Made by a program: the position numbers and the translations under genes. 64,000 nt of DNA, taken from positions 248,001-312,000 of the forward strand of contig NZ_JBGUAW010000001.1 in NCBI RefSeq assembly GCF_041821045.1, written 5' to 3'. Positions 1,851 to 24,589 of the stretch are shown here, piece after piece; within the stretch, counting starts at the first letter, position 1; every line of letters begins with the position of its first letter. The notes beneath the pieces are model-generated. The model worked only from the letters and a program-made list of their open reading frames with translations. It had not been told where the DNA came from and did not search any database. The stretch comes from Thiohalorhabdus sp. Cl-TMA (GTDB taxonomy: Bacteria > Pseudomonadota > Gammaproteobacteria > Thiohalorhabdales > Thiohalorhabdaceae).

Positions 1851-4103
1851 ATGCAGCTAGTCGTGCGTCGGTTCCTCGCCCTGTACTTGCTCGGAGGCGG
1901 GATGATCGCCCGCGCCGGGCAGAGCCCCGAGGCGGTCCAGAGCAACCTGGACCTCGCCTGGATCCTGATCGCCAGCGCCCTGGTCTTCTTCATGCAGGCC
2001 GGATTCGCGGCCCTGGAAACCGGCATGATCCGGGCCAAGAACTCCCTCAACGTCGCCGCCAAGAACACCGGGGACATCCTCGTGGCGGCGCTTCTGTTCT
2101 TCCTGACGGGCTACGCGCTGATGTTCGGCGATAGCGCCGACGGTCTCTTCGGGACCAGCGGCTTCCTGCTGGGCGGCGTGGAAACCCCCTTCGAATACGC
2201 CTTTTTCCTATTCCAGCTGGTATTTGCCGGAACCGCTGCGACCATCGTCTCCGGTGCCGTGGCCGAGCGCATGCGCTTCGGCGCCTATCTGGTCATCTCC
2301 GCCGCCGTCACGGGCCTCATCTATCCGGTATCCGGGCATTGGGTCTGGGGCGACGGCGGCTGGCTGGCGGGATTGGGATTCGTGGATTTCGCCGGCTCCA
2401 CGGTGGTCCACGCGCTGGGCGGTTGGGTGGGTCTGGTGGGGGCTTGGCTCCTTGGCCCTCGGCTGGGCCGCCTCGCACCGGACGGGACTGCGCGCGAGAT
2501 CCCGCCCCACAACCTCCTGCTCACGGCCATCGGTGTATTCATCCTGTGGCTCGGCTGGTTCGGCTTCAATGGCGGCAGCACCCTGAGCGCCGATGGCAGC
2601 ATCGCCGTGGTCCTGGTGAATACCTTCCTCGCCGCCGCCGCGGGTGGCATCGCCGCCCTCCTCCTTATCCCCCACAACGCGGGCACCCGGGCCATCTCCG
2701 GCGTCCTGAACGGTATCGTGGGCGGACTGGTGGGGATTACCGCCGGCGCCGCCGCCGTCTCCCCCGGGGGCGCCATCCTTATCGGCCTCGTCGCCGGCGG
2801 TGTGGTGGTCGCGGGGGAATGGTTCGTGCTCCATGTCCTGCGGGTGGATGATCCGGTGGGGGCGGTCTCGGCCCATGCCTTCGCGGGCGCCTGGGGTACC
2901 CTGGCCGTGGCGCTGTTCGCCCCGGTGGCCGAGCTCCCCATGGGGGACCGCCTGGCCCAGCTGGGTGTCCAGGGGGTCGGTGTGCTGGCGGTGGCCGCGT
3001 GGGGTCTGGGTACGGGGGCGGTGGTGTTCGGGCTGCTGCGGGCCATGGGCCGGCTGCGGGTCCCCGAGGAGGACGAGGAGCGGGGGCTCAACGAGGCGGA
3101 GCACGGTGCCCGCACGGTGTGGCTGGACACCCTACGGACCATGCAGGCCATTGCCCGCGAACGGGACCTGTCGCAGCGGGCGCCCGTGGAGCCCCACACG
3201 GAAGCCGGCGAGGTGGCCCAGGGCCTGAACGGGCTGCTCAAGGAATTCGCCGGGACCTTCGGCGCCTGGCAGGGAGAGACGGGCCGGGTCTCCGCGGCCG
3301 GGGATCAGCTGGCGGGATCGGCGGAGTCCATCGCCGACAGCGCTCGGGACTCCGCCGATCGTGTGGAGCGCGTCCGTGCCTCGGTCTCGGAGGCGGATAC
3401 GGTGGTGCAGGACGTGGTGGCGCAGATCCAGGAAGTCTCCCGCTCCGCCCGCCACGCCAACGAGCGGACACAGACGGGTCGGCAGGCCGTGGAGCGCGCG
3501 GCCACGGGCATCCGCGAGCTGCGCGCCGCCGGCGAACGGGTGGAGGGTGCCAACCGCACCATCCGGGATATCGCCGAGCGGACCGACCTGCTCGCCCTCA
3601 ATGCCGCCATCGAGGCTGCGAACGCCGGAGAGGCCGGCCAGGGCTTCGGGGTGGTGGCCGACGAGGTGCGGGCGTTGGCCCATCAGACCGCCCAGGCCAC
3701 CTCGGAGGTGGGCGGGCTGCTGGCCGAGCTACAGCAGCGGGCGTCCGATTCCGCCGAGGCGGTGGACGGGCTCCAGACCGCCATGCAGGACATGGCCGCC
3801 ATGGTGGACCAGACGGACCAATCCGCCGACCGGATCGCCGGGGGCGCCGAGCAGCTCGCCGCCACCATGCACGAAGCGGCCGGGGAAACGGCAGGGATCG
3901 CGGAGAGCGTGGGGACCGTGGCCCGCCATGGCGAGGAGGTCCGGGGCGCCTCCCGGGAGCTGGGCGAGCTGGCGCTGGGGCTGCGCCGCTCGCTGGCTGT
4001 CTACCGTCTGCCGGAGGAGGCGGAGGACACGTCGCGGGTCCCCGGAACGCTGGTGGCCCGGTCCCATGTGGCTCAAATGCAAGGTGCGCCGGCCCGGGCA
4101 TGA
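1851..4103 (+). CDS. Ammonium transporter fused to a methyl-accepting chemotaxis signalling domain
   Basis: One uninterrupted 750-residue frame. Residues 1-23 look like a signal peptide. Residues ~30-400 are an Amt/MEP channel with about 11 membrane helices, and its functional residues are kept: the twin histidines (in STVVHALGG and AVSAHAFAG), the gate phenylalanine in LVFAGT, the WFGFNGGS motif and the aspartate of FVDFAGS. Residues ~400-430 are the usual Amt cytoplasmic tail (GLNEAEHG). Residues ~432-465 resemble the second half of a HAMP linker ([18 protein letters not shown]). Residues ~470-725 are a chemoreceptor coiled coil whose hairpin tip spans ~575-606 ([20 protein letters not shown]). 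There is no C-terminal pentapeptide for receptor methylation enzymes. The likely role is a transport-coupled ammonium sensor feeding CheA/CheW. The gene is monocistronic, behind a sigma-54 promoter and an NtrC-like site. Both domain assignments are secure; the sensing role is inference. Confidence 0.93.
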
Positions 4104-4186
4104 GGGCGGTGAAGAGGCCGCTGCACCAATCGGGGGCGGTGGCGGCGCCGCATGCCCCGAAAGGGTGCGGAGCCGGGCCGCGCCCC

Positions 4187-4984
4187 CTACCCGGCGCGGC
4201 GCGCCACCAGCAGGGCGGCGAACACTAGGGCCTGCAGGAGCACGATGAGTGCCCCCACGGGGGCGTTCAGGGGATAGCTGAGCAGCAGTCCGCCCACAGC
4301 GGTGGCCAGACCCAGCAGCGCGGCCAGGAGCGAGACCCAGGCGAAGGTTGCGCCCAGCAGGCGGGCGCTGGCGGCCGGGACCACGAAAAAGCTGGCCACC
4401 AGCACGATGCCGATGAGCTTCACGGAGGCGACTATGGCCAGGGCGCTGAGTCCGAAGAAACCGTAATCCAGCACGCGCACCGGGAGTCCGGACGCCTGGG
4501 CCAGCTCCCGGTCGAAGGTGATCAGGGTCAGCGCCCCCCAGGCGGGGAGCAGGAAGGCCAGCACCGCCACCGCCACCGCACCCAGCCACAGGAGATCGCT
4601 CCACTGGATGGCCAGGATGGAGCCGAACAGGTAGGCGGATAGGGAGGCATTGGCATCGGACAAGGAGAGTAGGATCACGCCCGTGGCCATGCCGGCGGCG
4701 AAAAAGACGCCCACTACCGTGTCCTCCGCTAGCGCTCCGCGGCGGCGCAGATAGGCGATCAACAGGCCCAGGCCCACGGCCACGGGGACCGCCACCAGGA
4801 AGGGCGCCACGCCCAGGTATAGCCCCAGGCCGATGCCCGAGAAGGCGCCGTGGCTCACCCCGGCGGCAAGGAAGCTCATCCGGCGCTGGACCAGGAAGAC
4901 CCCCAGCAGCCCGCCCAGCAGCCCGGTTATGGCTGCCGCCGCCAGGGCCCGCTGCAGGAACGGCAGGCTGAGGAGCTCAAGCAT
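4187..4984 (-). CDS. znuB: Zinc/manganese ABC transporter permease
   Basis: A 265-residue integral membrane protein of the ABC-3 (ZnuB/TroC/MntB) family with eight or nine hydrophobic helices. The N-terminal QRRMSFLAAGVSHGAFSGIG matches the conserved start of this family, and VKLIGIVLVASFFVVPAASA matches the conserved later helix. It is the last gene of znuA-znuC-znuB. The ATG at 4984 overlaps the znuC stop by 8 bases (ATGCTTGA), which supports this start over one six codons upstream. The metal could be zinc or manganese; the permease sequence does not decide it. Confidence 0.88.
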   Translation of the reverse strand: MLELLSLPFLQRALAAAAITGLLGGLLGVFLVQRRMSFLAAGVSHGAFSGIGLGLYLGVAPFLVAVPVAVGLGLLIAYLRRRGALAEDTVVGVFFAAGMATGVILLSLSDANASLSAYLFGSILAIQWSDLLWLGAVAVAVLAFLLPAWGALTLITFDRELAQASGLPVRVLDYGFFGLSALAIVASVKLIGIVLVASFFVVPAASARLLGATFAWVSLLAALLGLATAVGGLLLSYPLNAPVGALIVLLQALVFAALLVARRAG

Positions 4985-5720
4985 GATCCGGTCCCAGCAC
5001 ATGGGCGTGCCCCATGTGGCCGAAGGCCTCGCGCAGGCAGGCCTCCGTAAGCACCTCCGCGGAGGGACCGCAGCCGATGACCCGATGGTTGAGGATCAGG
5101 CAGCTGTGGGCATGGTGGCGCGCCACCTCCCAGTCGTGGGTGATCATGGCGATGGCTACCTCGGGGTGATCGGCCTGGTATTCCTCCAGGTATTGGTAGA
5201 GGTCGTGCTCGCCCACCCGGTCCACCCCGGCCGCCGGCTCGTCGAGCAGAAGCAGGTCCGGCTCGGCCACCAGGGCGCGGGCCAGGTAGACCCGCTGGAG
5301 CTGGCCGCCCGAAAGGGCCGCCAGGGGGCGGTCGGCGAACTCCCCCGCCCCCACCCGGTCCAGGGCCCGCCGAGCCTGGTCCCGGCGGGCGCCGGTCCGC
5401 CATCCCGGCCAGGAGCCGGTGATCCCCGAGATCACCACCTCCACCGCGCGGCCCGGAAAGGTGCGGTCGAAGGTCTTGAGCTGGGGCACGTAGCCGATGC
5501 GCTTGGCGCGGTTGCGGATGGTCCCCGTGTAGCCCTCCAGCCCCAGCAGGCAGCGGAACAGGGTGGTCTTTCCGGAGCCGTTGGGCCCCAGGATGGCGAG
5601 GAAAGCCCCGCTGCGGATCCGGAAGCTGACGTGGTCCAGGGCGGTCACCGCGCCGTAGCGCACGGTGAGGTCTTCCACCTCCAGCAGCGGGTCGCCGGTG
5701 GAATCAGCGGGTGTAGGCAT
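4977..5720 (-). CDS. znuC: Zinc/manganese ABC transporter ATP-binding protein
   Basis: A 247-residue ATPase that powers metal uptake. It has Walker A GPNGSGKTT near residue 45, a Q-loop (GYVPQ), the signature LSGGQLQR near 142, Walker B LLLLDEP and the switch histidine in MITHD. The last ~30 residues are His-rich (HMGHAHVLGPDHA), a common feature in zinc transporters that may help sense or bind the metal. It overlaps znuA by 17 bases and znuB by 8, so the three are translationally coupled. Confidence 0.92.
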   Translation of the reverse strand: MPTPADSTGDPLLEVEDLTVRYGAVTALDHVSFRIRSGAFLAILGPNGSGKTTLFRCLLGLEGYTGTIRNRAKRIGYVPQLKTFDRTFPGRAVEVVISGITGSWPGWRTGARRDQARRALDRVGAGEFADRPLAALSGGQLQRVYLARALVAEPDLLLLDEPAAGVDRVGEHDLYQYLEEYQADHPEVAIAMITHDWEVARHHAHSCLILNHRVIGCGPSAEVLTEACLREAFGHMGHAHVLGPDHA

Positions 5721-6570
5721 CGTGGACCTGCCGGGCGTTGTAGCGGATGAGCTCGGGGTAGCCCGAAATGGCGGGGTCGAACCCCAGCGGATCGAGGACC
5801 GCCACCCGCACGCCGGCCTCGCGGGCCAGGGCCCGGACGGCGGACTCGGGCAGCTGGGGCTCGCGGAAGACGGCGGGAATGCCGGCGCGGCGGATCGTGG
5901 CCAGCAGGTCGCGGATTTTCCGGGGGGCGGGCTCGTTGCCGGCGAGGTCCAGGTAGGTACCTGCCACCTCCAGACCGTAGTGGCGGAAGAAGTACTCGAA
6001 GGCCGGATGGTAGGTCACCACCTTGCGGACCGGCAGGCCGGAGAGCAGGGCGTCGGCCTTGCGGTCCGCGGTCCGGATCGCCGCGATGAACCGTTCGCCG
6101 TTGGCGGCGAAGGCCTCCGCGCGGTCGGGAAGCAGCTCGCCGAGGCGCTCGGCCAGGGCCCGGGCGGCCCGGATCATGACCTCCGGTTCGAGCCAGATGT
6201 GGCCGTTGACCGCTCCCCGCTCGTCCCGTATGGCGTCGAAGGAAACCGTCTCGGACACGGTAAACAGCTGTCCGGACGATACCGCCTCCGTCAGGTAGCC
6301 CTCCACCCGCTGCTGGCCGATGCCGTTGCGGATGACCAGATCCGCAGCCTGGATGCGCGCCATCTCGGCGATGGAAGGCTCGAAATGGTGGGGATCCTGG
6401 CCGCGCTGCACCAGGACGTGCACCTCCGCCGCCCCTCCGGCGACGGCGCGGGCGGTCATGGCGTAGGGCGGGATAGTGGCGACGAGGTCCAGGGAAGCCG
6501 CCGTGGCCGCGGCCGGCAACCAGGCCAGAATGGCCGCGAAGCGGGCCAGCAGACGCGGGCCAAGCTGCAT
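5704..6570 (-). CDS. znuA: Periplasmic zinc/manganese-binding protein
   Basis: A 288-residue cluster A-I solute-binding protein, the capture component of the ABC importer encoded just downstream. An N-terminal signal peptide ends near TAAS. The expected metal ligands are visible: His in QDPHHFEPS, His in NGHIWLEP, His in VVTYHPAF and an acidic residue in the C-terminal VLDPLG segment. The His-rich loop typical of dedicated ZnuA proteins is absent, so manganese remains possible. Upstream lies the DAHP synthase gene (104-bp gap), so this gene may have its own promoter or be read from the gshB-apbE-aro transcript. Confidence 0.88.
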   Translation of the reverse strand: MQLGPRLLARFAAILAWLPAAATAASLDLVATIPPYAMTARAVAGGAAEVHVLVQRGQDPHHFEPSIAEMARIQAADLVIRNGIGQQRVEGYLTEAVSSGQLFTVSETVSFDAIRDERGAVNGHIWLEPEVMIRAARALAERLGELLPDRAEAFAANGERFIAAIRTADRKADALLSGLPVRKVVTYHPAFEYFFRHYGLEVAGTYLDLAGNEPAPRKIRDLLATIRRAGIPAVFREPQLPESAVRALAREAGVRVAVLDPLGFDPAISGYPELIRYNARQVHDAYTR

Positions 6571-6674
6571 GACGGCTCCTTCGAGTGGTGCGGGCGGAGG
6601 GGGAGGAAGACGTTATACAGTACCAGCCCTGTCAAGTCGCGGAGGCGGTGTGTCCGGTCCCCTGAGGCCGGACG

Positions 6675-7793
6675 TTAGAACCGCGGCATGTTCGCCGCCA
6701 GGTGGACGCGGTTCCGATAGGCCTCCTCCACCATGGCAAGATCCCGACTGAAATAGGGCAGCTCCTCCAGGTGGAGCGCCTGGGGGCCGTCCACCAGGGC
6801 TCGTTCGGGCTCGGGATGGAAGTCCGTCAGGACCATGTTGGCACCGGCGATCACCCCCTGCGCGGCCACGTGCTGGATCTCCAGCAGGCCGTCGGGCGCC
6901 CGCTCGCGACTGCCCACGGAGTGGCTGGGGTCCACGCATACCGGCATGCGGGTGAGGCGCTTCACCACCGGCACGTGGGCGAAATCCACCAGGTTGCGGT
7001 GCGGCGCGCCCATGTGGGATTTCACGCCGCGCAGGCAGAACACGATGTTGCGGTTGCCGCTGGCGGCGATGTACTCGCAGGCGTTGAGGGATTCCTCCAG
7101 GCTGATGCCGAAGCCCCGCTTGTAGAGCACCGGAAACCGGTTCTGCGCCCCCACCTCCTTGAGCAGCTCGAAGTTCTGGGCGTTGCGGGTGCCCACCTGC
7201 AGCATGACCCCCGTGGGATTGCCCGCCCGCTCCAGGTTGTCCCGGATTTCCTCGATCTGCTCCGCCTGGGTCACCTCCATGGTCACCACCCGTATGCCGT
7301 AGTTGCCCGCCAGCTCGAATACGTAGGGCAGGCAGTCGGCGCCGTGCCCCTGGAAGTCGTAGGGGCTGGTGCGGGGCTTGTAGGCGCCCATGCGGGTGGT
7401 CACCAGACCGTGGTCGCGCAGGGCGGCCATCATGCGCTCGGTGTTGGTCCGATTGTCCACCGCGCACAGCCCGGCGAACAGGTGGAAGGTGTCCTGCCCG
7501 AAATGCAGGCCGTTGTAGTCGAAGCCCACGGGCTCCACCTGGCCGCGGTGGCGGCCGAGCAGGCGGTAGCGGTCCGAGACCCGGACCACGCGCTCCACCG
7601 CGGGCTCCCCCGCGATCTCGTCGGCGTCCAGCGCCGAGGTATCGCCGATCAGGTAAAGCTCCGTGACGGTCTCCCGCGTGCCGTGCTCCCGGTGATGCCG
7701 GACCTCGATGTCGGGCTTCGCCGCCAGATAGGTGAGCAGGCTCTGGTACTCGGGGTCCTTTTCGTCCACGCCGGTCTTGAGTATGACGATCAT
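6675..7793 (-). CDS. 3-deoxy-7-phosphoheptulonate (DAHP) synthase, type I-beta
   Basis: A 372-residue DAHP synthase catalysing the first step of aromatic biosynthesis from phosphoenolpyruvate and erythrose 4-phosphate, the latter a Calvin/pentose-phosphate intermediate. Residues ~1-90 form the ferredoxin-like regulatory domain seen in Thermotoga-type enzymes; the catalytic barrel follows with GAYKPRTSPYDFQG near residue 160 and VCVDPSHSVGSRERAP near the end. It differs from the E. coli AroFGH subtype. The ATG at 7793 lies 33 bases from the upstream tonB-like stop, so it belongs to that minus-strand run. The trp genes that use its product chain are elsewhere in the window. Confidence 0.88.
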   Translation of the reverse strand: MIVILKTGVDEKDPEYQSLLTYLAAKPDIEVRHHREHGTRETVTELYLIGDTSALDADEIAGEPAVERVVRVSDRYRLLGRHRGQVEPVGFDYNGLHFGQDTFHLFAGLCAVDNRTNTERMMAALRDHGLVTTRMGAYKPRTSPYDFQGHGADCLPYVFELAGNYGIRVVTMEVTQAEQIEEIRDNLERAGNPTGVMLQVGTRNAQNFELLKEVGAQNRFPVLYKRGFGISLEESLNACEYIAASGNRNIVFCLRGVKSHMGAPHRNLVDFAHVPVVKRLTRMPVCVDPSHSVGSRERAPDGLLEIQHVAAQGVIAGANMVLTDFHPEPERALVDGPQALHLEELPYFSRDLAMVEEAYRNRVHLAANMPRF

Positions 7794-7826
7794 GGGCCGC
7801 TCCCAGGGGTTGGTGCGGAACCCGGC

Positions 7827-8792
7827 TCAGCCCCGGTCCGGGGCGCGCAGATCGGAGCCGCGGGTGAAATTGAAATGGTGCCGGATGGGCAGGCCGTCCG
7901 CATAGCGGCGCTCCAGCGCATCGGGGAAAGTGCTGTAGGGGGCCCCGAGGCGGATGATCTGCTTGGCCGCGGCGTCCAGGATGTCGCTGCCCGAGGATTC
8001 CAGGATCCGCAGGTGCGCCAGTGTGCCGTCCGGACGAACCACCGCCTCCACCCGCACCTTGCCCGTCAGGTCGCGCTCCTGGGCCTCCTCCGGGTAGTTC
8101 AGGTTGCCGATGCGCTCCACTTTGGCGATCCAGGCGGAGATGTAGGAAGCGGCCTTGTCCTCGCGCGTGGCCATCCGCGCCCGGTCCGCGGTTTCCCGCG
8201 CGGTGTTGCGGCGCTCCTGATTGTTCCGGTCCCACTGGGCCATTTGCCGATTGGAGGGGTAGAGCTGGAAGGAATCCTTCTCCGGCGTGGCGGGGGCGCT
8301 CCGCGCACCTCCGGAGGATTCTCCGTTGGCCCGCTTTTCGGGGGCTTCCGGGCTGCTGAGCAGCTCCTCCTCCTTCGGTGCGGGTGCGGGCTGCTTCTGC
8401 GGCGCCTCGGTGGGCGTCCGCTTGGCCGGTGCTTTCTCCGCTTCGGCCTTCGGGTCCGGCTCGGGTGGTGTGGGCGCGGGAGCTTCCTGCGCCGGGACGT
8501 TGCTGCGTCCGGCGAAGGGGTTGGCCGCCTCCTTGCGTTTCTCGTCCTTTCCGGCGGCCTTCTGGCTGCGGCTGGCGGCGGGAGCGTCCCGGTCCGGGCT
8601 GTTGGTCTCCCGGGCGGGCATGGGCCGGTATTCCACCATGCGCAGCATCGGGCCCGAGGACGACTCGGGCTCCGGTGCCGTAAAGCCGACCAGGCCCAGC
8701 ACCGCGGCGTGCAGCAGTGCGGATCCCAGCAAGGCCACCAGGAGCCGGGGGTCAAGAGTGTTTTCAGGGGGAGGCCAGGCCATGTGCGTCAT
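7827..8792 (-). CDS. TonB-family energy transducer
   Basis: A 321-residue protein with one N-terminal membrane helix (LLVALLGSALLHAAVLGLV) including the transmembrane His found in TonB, then a long Pro/Ala/Lys/Glu-rich periplasmic spacer (~residues 60-200), then a C-terminal TonB domain starting at NYPEEAQERDLTGKVRVEAV. TonB links the inner-membrane proton motive force, through ExbBD, to outer-membrane transporters. No exbB or exbD is nearby. The ATG at 8792 overlaps the EetB-like gene by 29 bases; an ATG three codons later is an alternative. Its position inside an apbE/EetA/EetB-like cluster suggests an envelope role, but the partner receptor is unknown. Confidence 0.8.
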   Translation of the reverse strand: MTHMAWPPPENTLDPRLLVALLGSALLHAAVLGLVGFTAPEPESSSGPMLRMVEYRPMPARETNSPDRDAPAASRSQKAAGKDEKRKEAANPFAGRSNVPAQEAPAPTPPEPDPKAEAEKAPAKRTPTEAPQKQPAPAPKEEELLSSPEAPEKRANGESSGGARSAPATPEKDSFQLYPSNRQMAQWDRNNQERRNTARETADRARMATREDKAASYISAWIAKVERIGNLNYPEEAQERDLTGKVRVEAVVRPDGTLAHLRILESSGSDILDAAAKQIIRLGAPYSTFPDALERRYADGLPIRHHFNFTRGSDLRAPDRG

Positions 8793-9336
8793 CCGCTCGC
8801 GATTCCCACTCCTGCACCAGTGCATAGGCCGCCAGGCCGTTGATGGTACCCGTTATGGCCGCGCCCGGCCCGAGGATCGGCACCAGCGCGAACAGTCCCG
8901 CGTGCTGCACGAACAGGGCGTAGGCCACGGCCAGCTGACCACCGATATGCGCCACCGCGGCCAGCACGCTGTACCCCACCGGACCCAGCCCCCGTCCCGG
9001 GAGGAGGCTGCCCAGCGCCAGCGCGGCCAGGGCCGCCAGGGCGCCGCCCAGGGACAGCCAGAATCCGGGCGCCAGCAGGGTGCCCAGGAAGATGGCCGCC
9101 ACCACCACCCGCAGCAGGGTGACCATGGCGGCGGTGCGCCATCCCCACAGGCAGAGTGCCGTGACGGTCACCACGTTGGCCAGTCCGGGCTTGAGCCCGG
9201 GGATGATGGGCGGAAGCGCCGCCTCCAGCAGGTGGAGTCCCACCGCGAAGGCGGCCATCCAGGCCAAGTGCGTATCCCGGCGCAGCCGGCTCAGGGCCGG
9301 GGGCTCCCGGAGCGCGCCCTCAGTAATTGATGGCAT
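8764..9336 (-). CDS. Gx transporter/Hpre_diP_synt_I membrane protein (EetB-like)
   Basis: A 190-residue membrane protein with about five or six helices and the family motif PGLKPGLANVVTVTAL near residue 45, characteristic of PF07456. That family was long annotated as heptaprenyl diphosphate synthase component I, but it is a transporter-like membrane protein. In flavin-based extracytosolic electron transfer loci a member (EetB) occurs with a NusG-II protein (EetA) and ApbE, and exactly that set is adjacent here. It overlaps its upstream neighbour by 17 bases and the TonB gene by 29. The true substrate is not established. Confidence 0.8.
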   Translation of the reverse strand: MPSITEGALREPPALSRLRRDTHLAWMAAFAVGLHLLEAALPPIIPGLKPGLANVVTVTALCLWGWRTAAMVTLLRVVVAAIFLGTLLAPGFWLSLGGALAALAALALGSLLPGRGLGPVGYSVLAAVAHIGGQLAVAYALFVQHAGLFALVPILGPGAAITGTINGLAAYALVQEWESRADDAHGLASP

Positions 9337-21181: not shown

Positions 21182-22246
21182 ATGCCTTTGGTATCAATGC
21201 GCCAGTTGCTGGACCATGCCGCCGAGAACGGCTATGGCCTTCCCGCTTTCAACGTAAACAACCTCGAGCAGGTCCGGGCCATCATGGATGCCGCCCGCGA
21301 GGTTGACTCCCCCGTCATCATGCAGGGCTCCGCGGGTGCCCGGAAGTATGCCGGGGAGCCGTTCCTGCGGCACCTGATCCAGGCGGCCGCCGAGGAGTAC
21401 CCCGAGATCCCCATCGCCATGCACCAGGATCACGGCGCCAGCCCGGCGGTGTGCCTGCGCTCCATCCGCTCCGGCTTCACCTCCGTGATGATGGACGGCT
21501 CCCTGGAGGCCGACGGCAAGACCCCCGCTTCCTACGACTACAACGTCCGCGTCACCGCCGAGGTGGTGAATGCCGCCCATTCGGTGGGCGTCTCCGTGGA
21601 GGGCGAGCTCGGCTGCTTGGGCTCCCTGGAGACCATGACCGGGGACAAGGAGGACGGACACGGCGCCGAGGGCGAGATGACCGAGGACATGCTCCTCACC
21701 GACCCCGAGGAAGCCGCTTCCTTCGTCAAGGACACCTCCGTGGACGCCCTGGCAGTGGCCATCGGTACCAGCCACGGCGCCTACAAGTTCTCCAGCAAGC
21801 CCACCGGCGAGGTGCTCCGCATCGACCGGATCAAGGAGATCCACGAGCGCATTCCGGACACCCACCTGGTGATGCACGGCTCCAGCTCCGTGCCGGAGGA
21901 GTGGATCGACATCATCAACCAGTACGGCGGCGAGATCCCCGAGACCTACGGCGTGCCGGTGGAGGAGATCCAGAACGGCATCAAGCACGGTGTCCGCAAG
22001 GTGAACATCGACACGGACATCCGGCTCGCCATGACCGGCGCCGCCCGGAAGCACCTCGGCGAGAACAAGGCTAACTTCGACCCGCGGAAGTTCCTGATCC
22101 CGGCGTACGAGGCCGCCAAGCAGATCTGCAAGGACCGCTACGAGCAGTTCGGCACGGCCGGCAACGCCTCCAAGATCAAGGCCATCGGCGAGGAAGAGAT
22201 GGTCCGCCGCTACGAGGCCGGCGAGCTGGATCCCCGGGTGAAGTAA
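21182..22246 (+). CDS. fba: Class II fructose-bisphosphate aldolase, Calvin-type
   Basis: A 354-residue zinc-dependent aldolase. Zinc ligands are visible in the MHQDHG and [10 protein letters not shown] segments; [20 protein letters not shown] and [13 protein letters not shown] follow the CbbA/FbaA pattern of the subfamily found in Calvin-cycle clusters. It makes fructose 1,6-bisphosphate (and probably sedoheptulose 1,7-bisphosphate) from triose phosphates. AGGAGG at 21166-21171 precedes the ATG at 21182. The gene ends the tkt-gap-pgk-pyk-fba run at a strong terminator. A second, unrelated class I aldolase follows it. Confidence 0.95.
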
Positions 22247-22272
22247 CCGCCTGTCAGCCAAGCCGCCATGGA

Positions 22273-22299
22273 AAGGCCCGGCCCGCGCCGGGCCTTTTT
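22273..22299 (+). terminator. Rho-independent terminator after the class II aldolase
   Basis: AAGGCCCGGC and GCCGGGCCTT pair around a 4-nt loop and run into TTTTT. This ends the Calvin/glycolytic transcript and isolates the following class I aldolase. Confidence 0.9.
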
Positions 22300-22643
22300 C
22301 GTTGTCCCTCCGGCGGCTCGCTCCCCTACTCCCCTTCCGCTTACCCACGATTTTTCGCGGCTTCTTGACCGGCGTAACTTCCACCGCTCGCCCGACCCCT
22401 ACGCACACCTTGAAGGAGCGGGGGATAATCCCAATGTAACGAGGAGCTTCGTTAAAAAAGGGCGCCCATGATGTAGCTGCCGGCAATGCCGAGCGGGGTT
22501 GCTTGCACAAAGGGGGTTGTCTTGGCTGCGTTGCCGAGGCAGCCTAAGCGGCTCAGGAACGCGAGACGTTACTGTAAGTCAAAATGGGTTATCCCTTTTC
22601 ATTCTCACCGGTTAGACCAGACCCACAAAGGGAGGTCGGGACC
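22300..22643 (+). other. 344-bp non-coding region upstream of the class I aldolase
   Basis: No coding frame is supported. It holds the promoter and leader of the class I aldolase. A hairpin GGCTGC/GCAGCC lies at about 22525-22544, and a GGGAGG ribosome site ends near 22636. No known riboswitch motif was recognised and no convincing -35/-10 pair was found. Confidence 0.5.
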
Positions 22644-23690
22644 ATGGCCAATTATTCCTGGAAGCACGCGGAAGAGCTGAAGCAGACCGCCCAGTCCATG
22701 GTGGCCAACTACAAAGGCATCCTGGCGGCGGACGAATCCAATAACACGGCGAGCAAGCGCCTCAAGGAGGTGGGCATCGAGTCCACCGAGGAGAGCCGCC
22801 GCAAGTACCGGCAGCTGCTGTTCACGGCCCCGGAGGCGGACAAGTACATCAGCGGGGTGATCCTCTACGACGAGACCATCCGCCAGGCCGACGATAACGG
22901 CACCGCTTTCCCCGAGCTGCTGAAGGGCCGCGGCATCATTCCGGGCATCAAAGTGGATACCGGCGCCAAGCCGCTGGCCGGCTCCCCGGACGAGAAAGTC
23001 ACCGAAGGCCTGGACGGCCTCCGTGAGCGCCTGGCCGAGTACTACAACATGGGTGCCCGCTTCTCCAAGTGGCGCGCCGTGATTACCCCCGGCGAGGATA
23101 TGCCCACGCGCCAGTGCATGGAGGCCAATGCCCACGCCCTGGCCCGCTACTCCGCGCTGTGCCAGGAAAACGGCCTGGTGCCCATCGTGGAGCCCGAGGT
23201 GCTGATCAACGGCAGCCACAGCATCGACGCCTGCGAGGAAATCACCGAAGAGAACCTCCATATGGTGTTCGACGAGCTGTATCGCCACAACGTCATGCCC
23301 GAGGGCGTGGTGCTCAAGACCTCCATGGTGATCTCCGGCCTGGATGCGCCCAGCCGAGCCGGCGTGGAGGAGGTCGCCGAGCGCACGGTGCAGACGCTGC
23401 AGCGCGTGGTGCCGCCGGCCCTGGGCGGCGTGGTGTTCCTCTCCGGCGGTCAGGGCGACGTGGAGGCCACCCAGCATCTGGATGTCATGAACAAGAAGTA
23501 CAAGAACCAGGTGCCGTGGCGGATGACCTTCTCCTATGCCCGCGCCCTGCAGAACCCGGCCCTGGGCAGCTGGGGCTCCGATATGTCCAACACCGAGGAG
23601 GCCCAGAAGAACTTCGCTTTCCGCGCCAAGCTCAACAGCCTGGCCTCCGAGGGCGAGTATTCCGAGGACATGGAGAGCAAGGCCGCCTGA
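22644..23690 (+). CDS. Class I fructose-bisphosphate aldolase
   Basis: A 348-residue Schiff-base aldolase of the animal/plant-like class I family, unrelated in fold detail and mechanism to the zinc enzyme encoded just before it. It has GILAADESNNTASKRL near residue 25, the conserved KWRAVITPGEDMPT near 147, and the Schiff-base lysine in VVLKTSMVISGL near 225. It does the same reaction without metal. It has its own leader and terminator, so it is a separate transcript. The two aldolases may serve different flux directions or conditions; the reason for keeping both is not shown by the sequence. Confidence 0.95.
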   Translation: MANYSWKHAEELKQTAQSMVANYKGILAADESNNTASKRLKEVGIESTEESRRKYRQLLFTAPEADKYISGVILYDETIRQADDNGTAFPELLKGRGIIPGIKVDTGAKPLAGSPDEKVTEGLDGLRERLAEYYNMGARFSKWRAVITPGEDMPTRQCMEANAHALARYSALCQENGLVPIVEPEVLINGSHSIDACEEITEENLHMVFDELYRHNVMPEGVVLKTSMVISGLDAPSRAGVEEVAERTVQTLQRVVPPALGGVVFLSGGQGDVEATQHLDVMNKKYKNQVPWRMTFSYARALQNPALGSWGSDMSNTEEAQKNFAFRAKLNSLASEGEYSEDMESKAA

Positions 23691-23715
23691 AGGCGGACCT
23701 GATCCCTGGTAAATG

Positions 23716-23745
23716 GCCCCGCCCCTCCGGGCGGGGCTATTTGTT
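23716..23745 (+). terminator. Rho-independent terminator after the class I aldolase
   Basis: GCCCCGCCC and GGGCGGGGC pair around a 4-nt loop and run into TATTTGTTTGTCTT. Confidence 0.85.
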
Positions 23746-23840
23746 TGTCTTGCTTTGAGCCATCAATCACCAATCCCTTCCAAGGGCTTCCTTTGCCTCG
23801 GACCCCACTGGCCCAGGCATCTGGCCGGTATCCGGAAGGG

Positions 23841-23870
23841 CATGTGGCGCATGTGCCTAAATTACACATG
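23841..23870. promoter_or_regulatory. CATGTG repeat and dyad, candidate enhancer-binding-protein site
   Basis: CATGTG occurs at 23841 and 23850, and its complement CACATG at 23865, giving a direct repeat plus a perfect 6-bp dyad with a 9-bp spacer. Its centre is about 100 bp upstream of the start predicted for the sigma-54 site at 23932, a typical position for a sigma-54 activator. No known regulator consensus was recognised. Confidence 0.5.
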
Positions 23871-23931
23871 GGAAAAAGCGGTGGACGGCGAGCAGGGAAA
23901 CGTCTCGCCCCGCAGTTTGGGGCCAGTTCCT

Positions 23932-23948
23932 TTGGCCCGGTTCTTGCT
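23932..23948 (+). promoter_or_regulatory. Sigma-54 promoter of the 92-aa orphan gene
   Basis: TTGGCCCG-N4-TTGCT matches YTGGCACG-N4-TTGCW with a single substitution, and the GG (23934) and GC (23946) are 10 bp apart as required. Predicted start near 23958, giving a ~60-nt leader before the ATG at 24019. Confidence 0.7.
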
Positions 23949-24018
23949 TTCCAAGCCGCAGTACATCCCGGTCTGCAACCGGCGCTTTTCGGAACACCCC
24001 AGCGTAGTGGAGGTAACA

Positions 24019-24297
24019 ATGTCTATTGGCTCTGTGCCCTCGGATCCCAATATCGCCAGGCTGATGCAGAAGCTTCAGCAGGGCGCCGCTGATGGCCCTC
24101 CCCGTGGCGCCGAGACCGAGAAAACCGAGTCCCGGAAATCGGGGGCGACGGCCTCGGATGCGGCCAGCCGTGCCAAGGAGGGAAAGGAAGCGAGCGCGGC
24201 TCCCAAGGAGGACCAGAAGGGCACTGCCCGGACCGCTTCCAAGGAGGACGAGGCGGGGCGGGAGGGCAAGTCCGGCAGGATGGACCGGTACGCCTGA
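24019..24297 (+). CDS. Small Lys/Glu/Ala-rich hypothetical protein under sigma-54 control
   Basis: A 92-residue protein I do not recognise. A clear GGAGG lies 5 bases before the ATG. Residues 1-20 (SVPSDPNIARLMQKLQQG) could form a short amphipathic helix; residues 25-92 are low in hydrophobics and rich in Lys, Glu, Ala, Ser and Gly, so probably disordered. There is no signal peptide, membrane helix or cysteine. It stands alone between the class I aldolase terminator and rpe. A strong sigma-54 promoter and a dyad enhancer candidate precede it, which is the best evidence that it is a real, regulated gene. Sigma-54 genes are often linked to nitrogen, motility or envelope stress; which applies here is unknown. 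Confidence 0.65.
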   Translation: MSIGSVPSDPNIARLMQKLQQGAADGPPRGAETEKTESRKSGATASDAASRAKEGKEASAAPKEDQKGTARTASKEDEAGREGKSGRMDRYA

Positions 24298-24449: not shown

Positions 24450-24470
24450 CGAACGCACGCTGAGCGTTCG
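24450..24470. promoter_or_regulatory. Dyad near the rpe promoter
   Basis: CGAACGC and GCGTTCG form a perfect 7-bp inverted repeat with a 7-bp spacer. It overlaps a possible -35 (TTCGCA) that is 18 bp from TAAAAT near 24502. The 292-bp rpe leader holds other GC stems (AAAGGG...CCCTTT near 24413) but no gene. Confidence 0.35.
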
Positions 24471-24589
24471 CAAAACCCCCCGCTTCCCGGTAAAATCTGC
24501 CCCTTTCGACCCGCGAGCGAGAAATGGCCCGGCCCCGGCCGGGCAAGCCTATTCATAGAACGGAACATCGAATCGAACGGGGAAGGGTC

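Follow-up and report, generated by a model that had tools for sequence, protein, structure and literature searches.

A putative sigma-54-dependent transcription unit encoding a hydrophilin-like orphan protein between fba and rpe of Thiohalorhabdus sp. Cl-TMA

The sigma-54 promoter consensus is TGGCACG-N4-TTGCW (PMC3538637), and the closest described arrangement to the one reported here is that of the PEP-CTERM genes under PrsR. The passages of Haft 2006 that deal with these promoters give a 17-nt box, a spacer of 62.8 ± 10.6 nt, a sigma-54 site, and 71 nt to the start codon, and state that a few such sites precede other genes (PMC1569441). On the side of the product, the closest described proteins are the hydrophilins and LEA-like proteins of bacteria, in which the hydrophilin rule asks for glycine above 6% and a hydrophilicity index above 1 (PMC7448490).

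The locus lies in a 64,000-nt stretch of DNA (the window), in an 899-bp gap between the gene for class I fructose-bisphosphate aldolase (fba, stop at 23690) and rpe (24590). With the PEP-CTERM/PrsR promoters, as outlined in those passages (PMC1569441), it shares a 17-nt (T/C)GT-N11-ACA frame, a spacer of 61–65 nt, a sigma-54 site and about 70 nt to the ATG, whereas the letters of its box misfit the motif of the genus and its product is not a PEP-CTERM protein. With the hydrophilins and LEA-like proteins (PMC7448490), the 92-aa product shares glycine above 6%, a hydrophilicity index above 1 and predicted disorder, but in sequence it resembles neither LEA proteins nor any Pfam family, and it has an N-terminal helix. 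Other small genes of the genus that follow sigma-54 sites (L018/L032 and L021/L029) have the same class of promoter, 45–47 nt from promoter to ATG, and products of 93–138 aa; they are common to the congeners and look hydrophobic or membrane-like, whereas the 92-aa gene was found in one species only.

We consider, with confidence somewhat above even, that the locus is a real, species-restricted sigma-54 transcription unit, driven by an enhancer-binding protein (bEBP) and encoding a hydrophilin-like protein. The unit is probably ordinary in kind rather than a new kind of system.

Layout of the fba-rpe gap and the probable sigma-54 promoter

The features of the gap are as follows, with positions counted in the window.

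23708..23745, + strand: intrinsic terminator of the upstream fba, with a 17-pair stem and a T-rich tail, setting fba apart from the orphan unit
23841..23846, + strand: first CATGTG copy (direct repeat), read from the sequence; local p of the triple ~0.01
23852..23868, + strand: TGTGCCTAAATTACACA, a 17-nt TGTG-N9-CACA dyad and proposed bEBP site, centred at about -99
23932..23948, + strand: probable sigma-54 promoter TTGGCCCGGTTCTTGCT, with the -24 GG at 23934-23935 and the -12 GC at 23946-23947
24005..24012, + strand: Shine-Dalgarno region, about GTGGAGGT, strong and read from the sequence
24019..24297, + strand: ORF of the 92-aa orphan protein, with a predicted helix at 10-24, a disordered polar tail and hydrophilin-like composition
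24467..24496, + strand: sigma-70-type promoter-like site belonging to rpe itself; the congener G002 has the GGTAAAATC core upstream of rpe as well (same locus as L054)

The TGTG-N9-CACA dyad is the core of a larger CATGTG-N9-CACATG dyad at 23850-23870, and transcription from the sigma-54 promoter is predicted to start near 23958-23959. All positions given by the first-pass annotation were right. Gene names were taken from reading the translations unless a family search is cited. Named in this way, a class II-type and a class I-type fructose-bisphosphate aldolase gene adjoin at 21182-23690 of the window, after pgk and pyk. A search for RNA families returned sub-threshold matches only, located at the fba terminator, and no second copy of the region was found within its own genome, short chance matches aside.

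The promoter TTGGCCCGGTTCTTGCT fits 11 of the 12 specified consensus bases with correct spacing of GG and GC, the single departure being A to C (TGGCCCGGTTCTTGCT), and its earlier description as near-perfect is borne out. The strict search pattern TGGCNCGNNNNTTGCW has 7 matches in the 3.74-Mb genome and 19 across three genomes of the genus, where the raw count does not exceed that of the reversed pattern used as control (19 vs 21). The two patterns differ in placement: 15/19 strict matches were intergenic in the three genomes vs 2/21 for the control (Fisher p 1.4e-5, with the L026 site, called intergenic by the script, reassigned by hand to coding before the test, as it lies inside a tilS-like gene). 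In the own genome only, the figures were 6/7 vs 1/7 (p 0.03). The intergenic matches include sites before pilA, a PEP-CTERM gene, a fliK-like gene, a PQQ-dehydrogenase-like gene, and small genes that the congeners have in common. The sigma-54 DNA-binding domain PF04552 had one match per genome (E 7.5e-69), and the genome has 17 strong PF00158 matches to bEBPs.

Since strict matches in the genus are mostly intergenic when set against the reversed control, the sigma-54 promoter at 23932-23948 is probably real. A strict match ahead of a start codon is likelier to be genuine than spurious, given this intergenic placement and a genome encoding both RpoN and bEBPs. The ORF starts 70 nt beyond the end of the promoter, compared with 45–69 nt in other sigma-54 genes of the genus (L018, L020, L021, L014).

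Other sigma-54 sites were observed in the genus. L028 (G000:C11:91707) lies upstream of an apparent PQQ-dependent (methanol-type) dehydrogenase gene, and L031 (G001:C11:89801) is a strong site before a short ORF (22 codons, good ribosome site MTGRLLFLLIFVAMAWGLPKLM), possibly for a small membrane peptide. The small hydrophobic proteins L018/L032 (138 aa) and L021/L029 (93–94 aa) have sigma-54 sites ahead in both congeners, and L021/L029 is divergent from a moaA-like gene.

The CATGTG triple and its candidate activator

The arrangement CATGTG-N3-CATGTG-N9-CACATG, reported by the first-pass annotation, is present at 23841-23870 (CATGTGGCGCATGTGCCTAAATTACACATG) and occurs once in the 3.74-Mb genome. 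When the 173 bp upstream were shuffled, a hexamer triple of mixed orientation within 30 bp appeared in 1.0% of cases. Some 6-bp dyad is expected 0.9 times by chance in the same 173 bp, so the dyad by itself is unremarkable. A search for dyads near other sigma-54 sites and near bEBP genes found none. In the congener G001, the exact dyad (L033) overlaps with the site of ribosome binding ahead of a cytochrome b561 gene, and no sign was seen of a regulon common to this dyad and that of the window.

The dyad did not match the patterns tried for NifA, NtrC, NorR, GlrR, TyrR and FleQ. The upstream site of NifA has the pattern TGT-N10-ACA. A NifA-activated promoter was rejected, as this pattern is missing from 23745-23932 and the spacing here is N11. 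The NifA site has also been printed as TGT-N10-AGA (PMC3538637). A NifA-like bEBP, named by reading its sequence, is present in the genome (L083).

The TGTG-N9-CACA dyad may be a site for an enhancer-binding protein. That an uncharacterised Fis-type bEBP uses the whole triple as its operator, and so controls a newly arisen, species-specific disordered protein (a de novo gene under strict sigma-54 control), is a possibility that we hold to be doubtful.

Somewhat more doubtful still is that the unit belongs, as an outlier, to the PrsR (PEP-CTERM/exopolysaccharide) regulon and is activated by PrsK-PrsR through a diverged box, so that its small protein would be produced alongside the surface proteins sorted by exosortase. 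The layout here, with a 17-nt TGT-N11-ACA, 63 nt, the sigma-54 site and 70 nt to the ATG, agrees with the geometry given in the promoter passages of Haft 2006 (PMC1569441), and TGT-N11-ACA falls at the observed distance in 0.34% of shuffles. PrsR is encoded in the genome (TIGR02915, 725.7 bits with a cut-off of 502.6), together with nine PEP-CTERM matches. A de novo motif search from random starting points, applied to 13 PEP-CTERM promoters of the genus with sigma-54 sites chosen by eye and in some cases by relaxed consensus, returned about (T/C)GTCGAAAA-nn-TTTACA; the boxes lie 61–65 or 72–74 nt from the TGG, and the window site, at 64 nt, is in the first range. The letters speak against membership: on the distance-constrained motif the window site scores 0.5 vs leave-one-out scores of 2.7–17.7 for the PEP-CTERM promoters, a score reached by 14% of shuffles and 11% of random window stretches, and it is without the TTT before ACA. 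On the unconstrained motif, sigma-54 promoters of genes other than PEP-CTERM do as well. The product, moreover, has neither a PEP-CTERM, which is usual but not universal for the regulon, nor an obvious signal peptide.

Membership in the PrsR regulon thus fails on the letters of the box, far below the genus motif, while the geometry fits. The dyad had been annotated as a site not recognised; as letters it indeed fails as a PrsR box, but its layout is that of the PEP-CTERM/PrsR promoters. It may be a diverged PrsR site, or it may be bound by another Fis-type activator whose sites are similarly placed.

Clear PrsR-type boxes about 60–75 nt upstream of the sigma-54 sites of PEP-CTERM promoters were observed in the own genome (L098, L101, L103, L107, L109, L111, L113) and in G001 (L099, L102, L104, L106, L108, L110). 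The two distances preferred by the boxes of the genus are one DNA turn apart; the promoter passages of Haft 2006 give the spacer as a mean and spread only (PMC1569441).

The predicted 92-aa protein and its probable gene

The protein consists of Ala 17%, Ser 11%, Gly 10.9%, Lys 10%, Glu 10% and Arg 9%, with a net charge of +2, a GRAVY of -1.20, and nine bulky hydrophobic residues among 92; the earlier label Lys/Glu-rich is only loosely right, with Ala, Ser and Gly each at or above the share of Lys and Glu. By charge and hydropathy it falls on the disordered side of the boundary (0.366 vs 0.421). AlphaFold, run on the single sequence and therefore weak, predicts a helix at 10-24 (mean pLDDT 87 for residues 11-20, 56–68 for the remainder) and a short low-confidence helix at 46-51, with no other structure. 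The earlier description of the protein as disordered accordingly applies to its polar tail, but not to the N-terminal helix. The C-terminus reads GRMDRYA, and no match was found in Pfam or NCBIfam. FlgM, suggested by size and charge, was rejected solely on inspection and on the absence of a family match.

With Gly at 10.9% and a hydrophilicity index of 1.20, the composition is that of a hydrophilin, and among the 61 called proteins of the window it is the only one with Gly above 6% and GRAVY below -1. Such a class is defined by composition and is not evidence of function; our best guess, a tentative one, is a hydrophilin-like protectant that would be produced under some specific stress or nutritional condition.

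With nine neighbouring genes as the training set of a codon model, the 92-aa frame had a coding score of +12, compared with -29 to -136 for the other frames and -54 for the upstream extension in the same frame. Dinucleotide shuffles (3000) scored -63 +/- 16 and none reached +12 (z about 4.6), and a simple gene call with the codon model across the window selects the ORF. Ten other genes of the genus with a sigma-54 site ahead score 0.05–0.91 per codon, and the ORF, with 0.13, is near the bottom of this range. Synonymous codon choice is not host-like (-0.10 per codon vs +0.29 to +0.46; GC3 0.79 vs about 0.90), as would be expected of a young or foreign gene. The ORF is probably a real gene, in agreement with the earlier reading on this point, whereas the designation "possibly novel effector" found no support in its word effector.

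No homologues of the protein were found in 56 relatives or 369 genomes of the class (overlapping sets), nor in GTDB contigs, viral contigs, phages, plasmids, Pfam, NCBIfam or PHROGs. The searches gave merely weak low-complexity matches with E above 0.003, most of them with internal stops; for a low-complexity protein, distant relatives could escape such searches, close ones should not. Its annotation as an orphan of no recognisable family thus stands. The fba-rpe gap is about 6 kb in G001 and about 343 bp in G002, and the ORF is absent from it in both congeners. In G001 (L012, about 3700-9000) the gap is occupied by a large Rhs/YD-repeat-like ORF, and because of this the gap seems to take up species-specific genes. 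In everything searched the protein is an orphan, and it is probably the product of a young species-specific gene. Neither frame nor promoter is conserved among relatives, an outcome that had been set in advance as refuting; it weighs less here, since the coding signal comes from within the sequence itself and the neighbours simply lack the gene in this gap.

It is improbable that the sigma-54 promoter serves as a second, conditional start for rpe-gph-trp, in which case the ORF would be incidental to the leader or would encode a leader peptide. Read-through would be possible, as the stretch from 24297 to rpe (24590) showed no intrinsic terminator, but rpe has a promoter-like site of its own at 24467-24496, the ORF combines a good ribosome site with a coding signal, neither G001 nor G002 has a strict sigma-54 match in the fba-rpe gap, and the RNA structure of the transcript is not unusual against shuffles (z -0.28). 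Chance, that is, an open frame in a GC-rich spacer with a fortuitous promoter match ahead, is more improbable still: the spacer is unconserved, the protein is of low complexity and the frame stays open in about 15% of shuffles, but its coding score was unmatched in all 3000, sigma-54 matches this strong are mostly intergenic in the genus, and start, ribosome site and spacing are mutually consistent.

The proposed unit and its meaning

In the species-restricted sigma-54 unit that we prefer, sigma-54 RNA polymerase would bind at 23932-23948 and stay silent until activated, and a bEBP bound about 99 bp upstream, at the TGTG-N9-CACA dyad, would remodel it through ATP hydrolysis. The transcript would carry a 60-nt leader with a strong ribosome site, and its translation would yield the 92-aa protein, in which a single amphipathic helix precedes a disordered tail. 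Three parts of this model are inferred: that the dyad is the bEBP site, which bEBP acts there, and what the protein does. Against the model counts that a protein without homologues, as judged by sequence comparison, offers no evolutionary sign of selection.

Readings of this kind can usefully be tested by asking whether strict sigma-54 matches fall within or between genes, the reversed pattern serving as control. Because a sigma-54 promoter depends on an activator of its own, it is not easily acquired by accident. If expressed as predicted, the unit would exemplify all-or-none, enhancer-dependent control of an orphan gene; beyond this, the protein would be of interest mainly to researchers on this genus.
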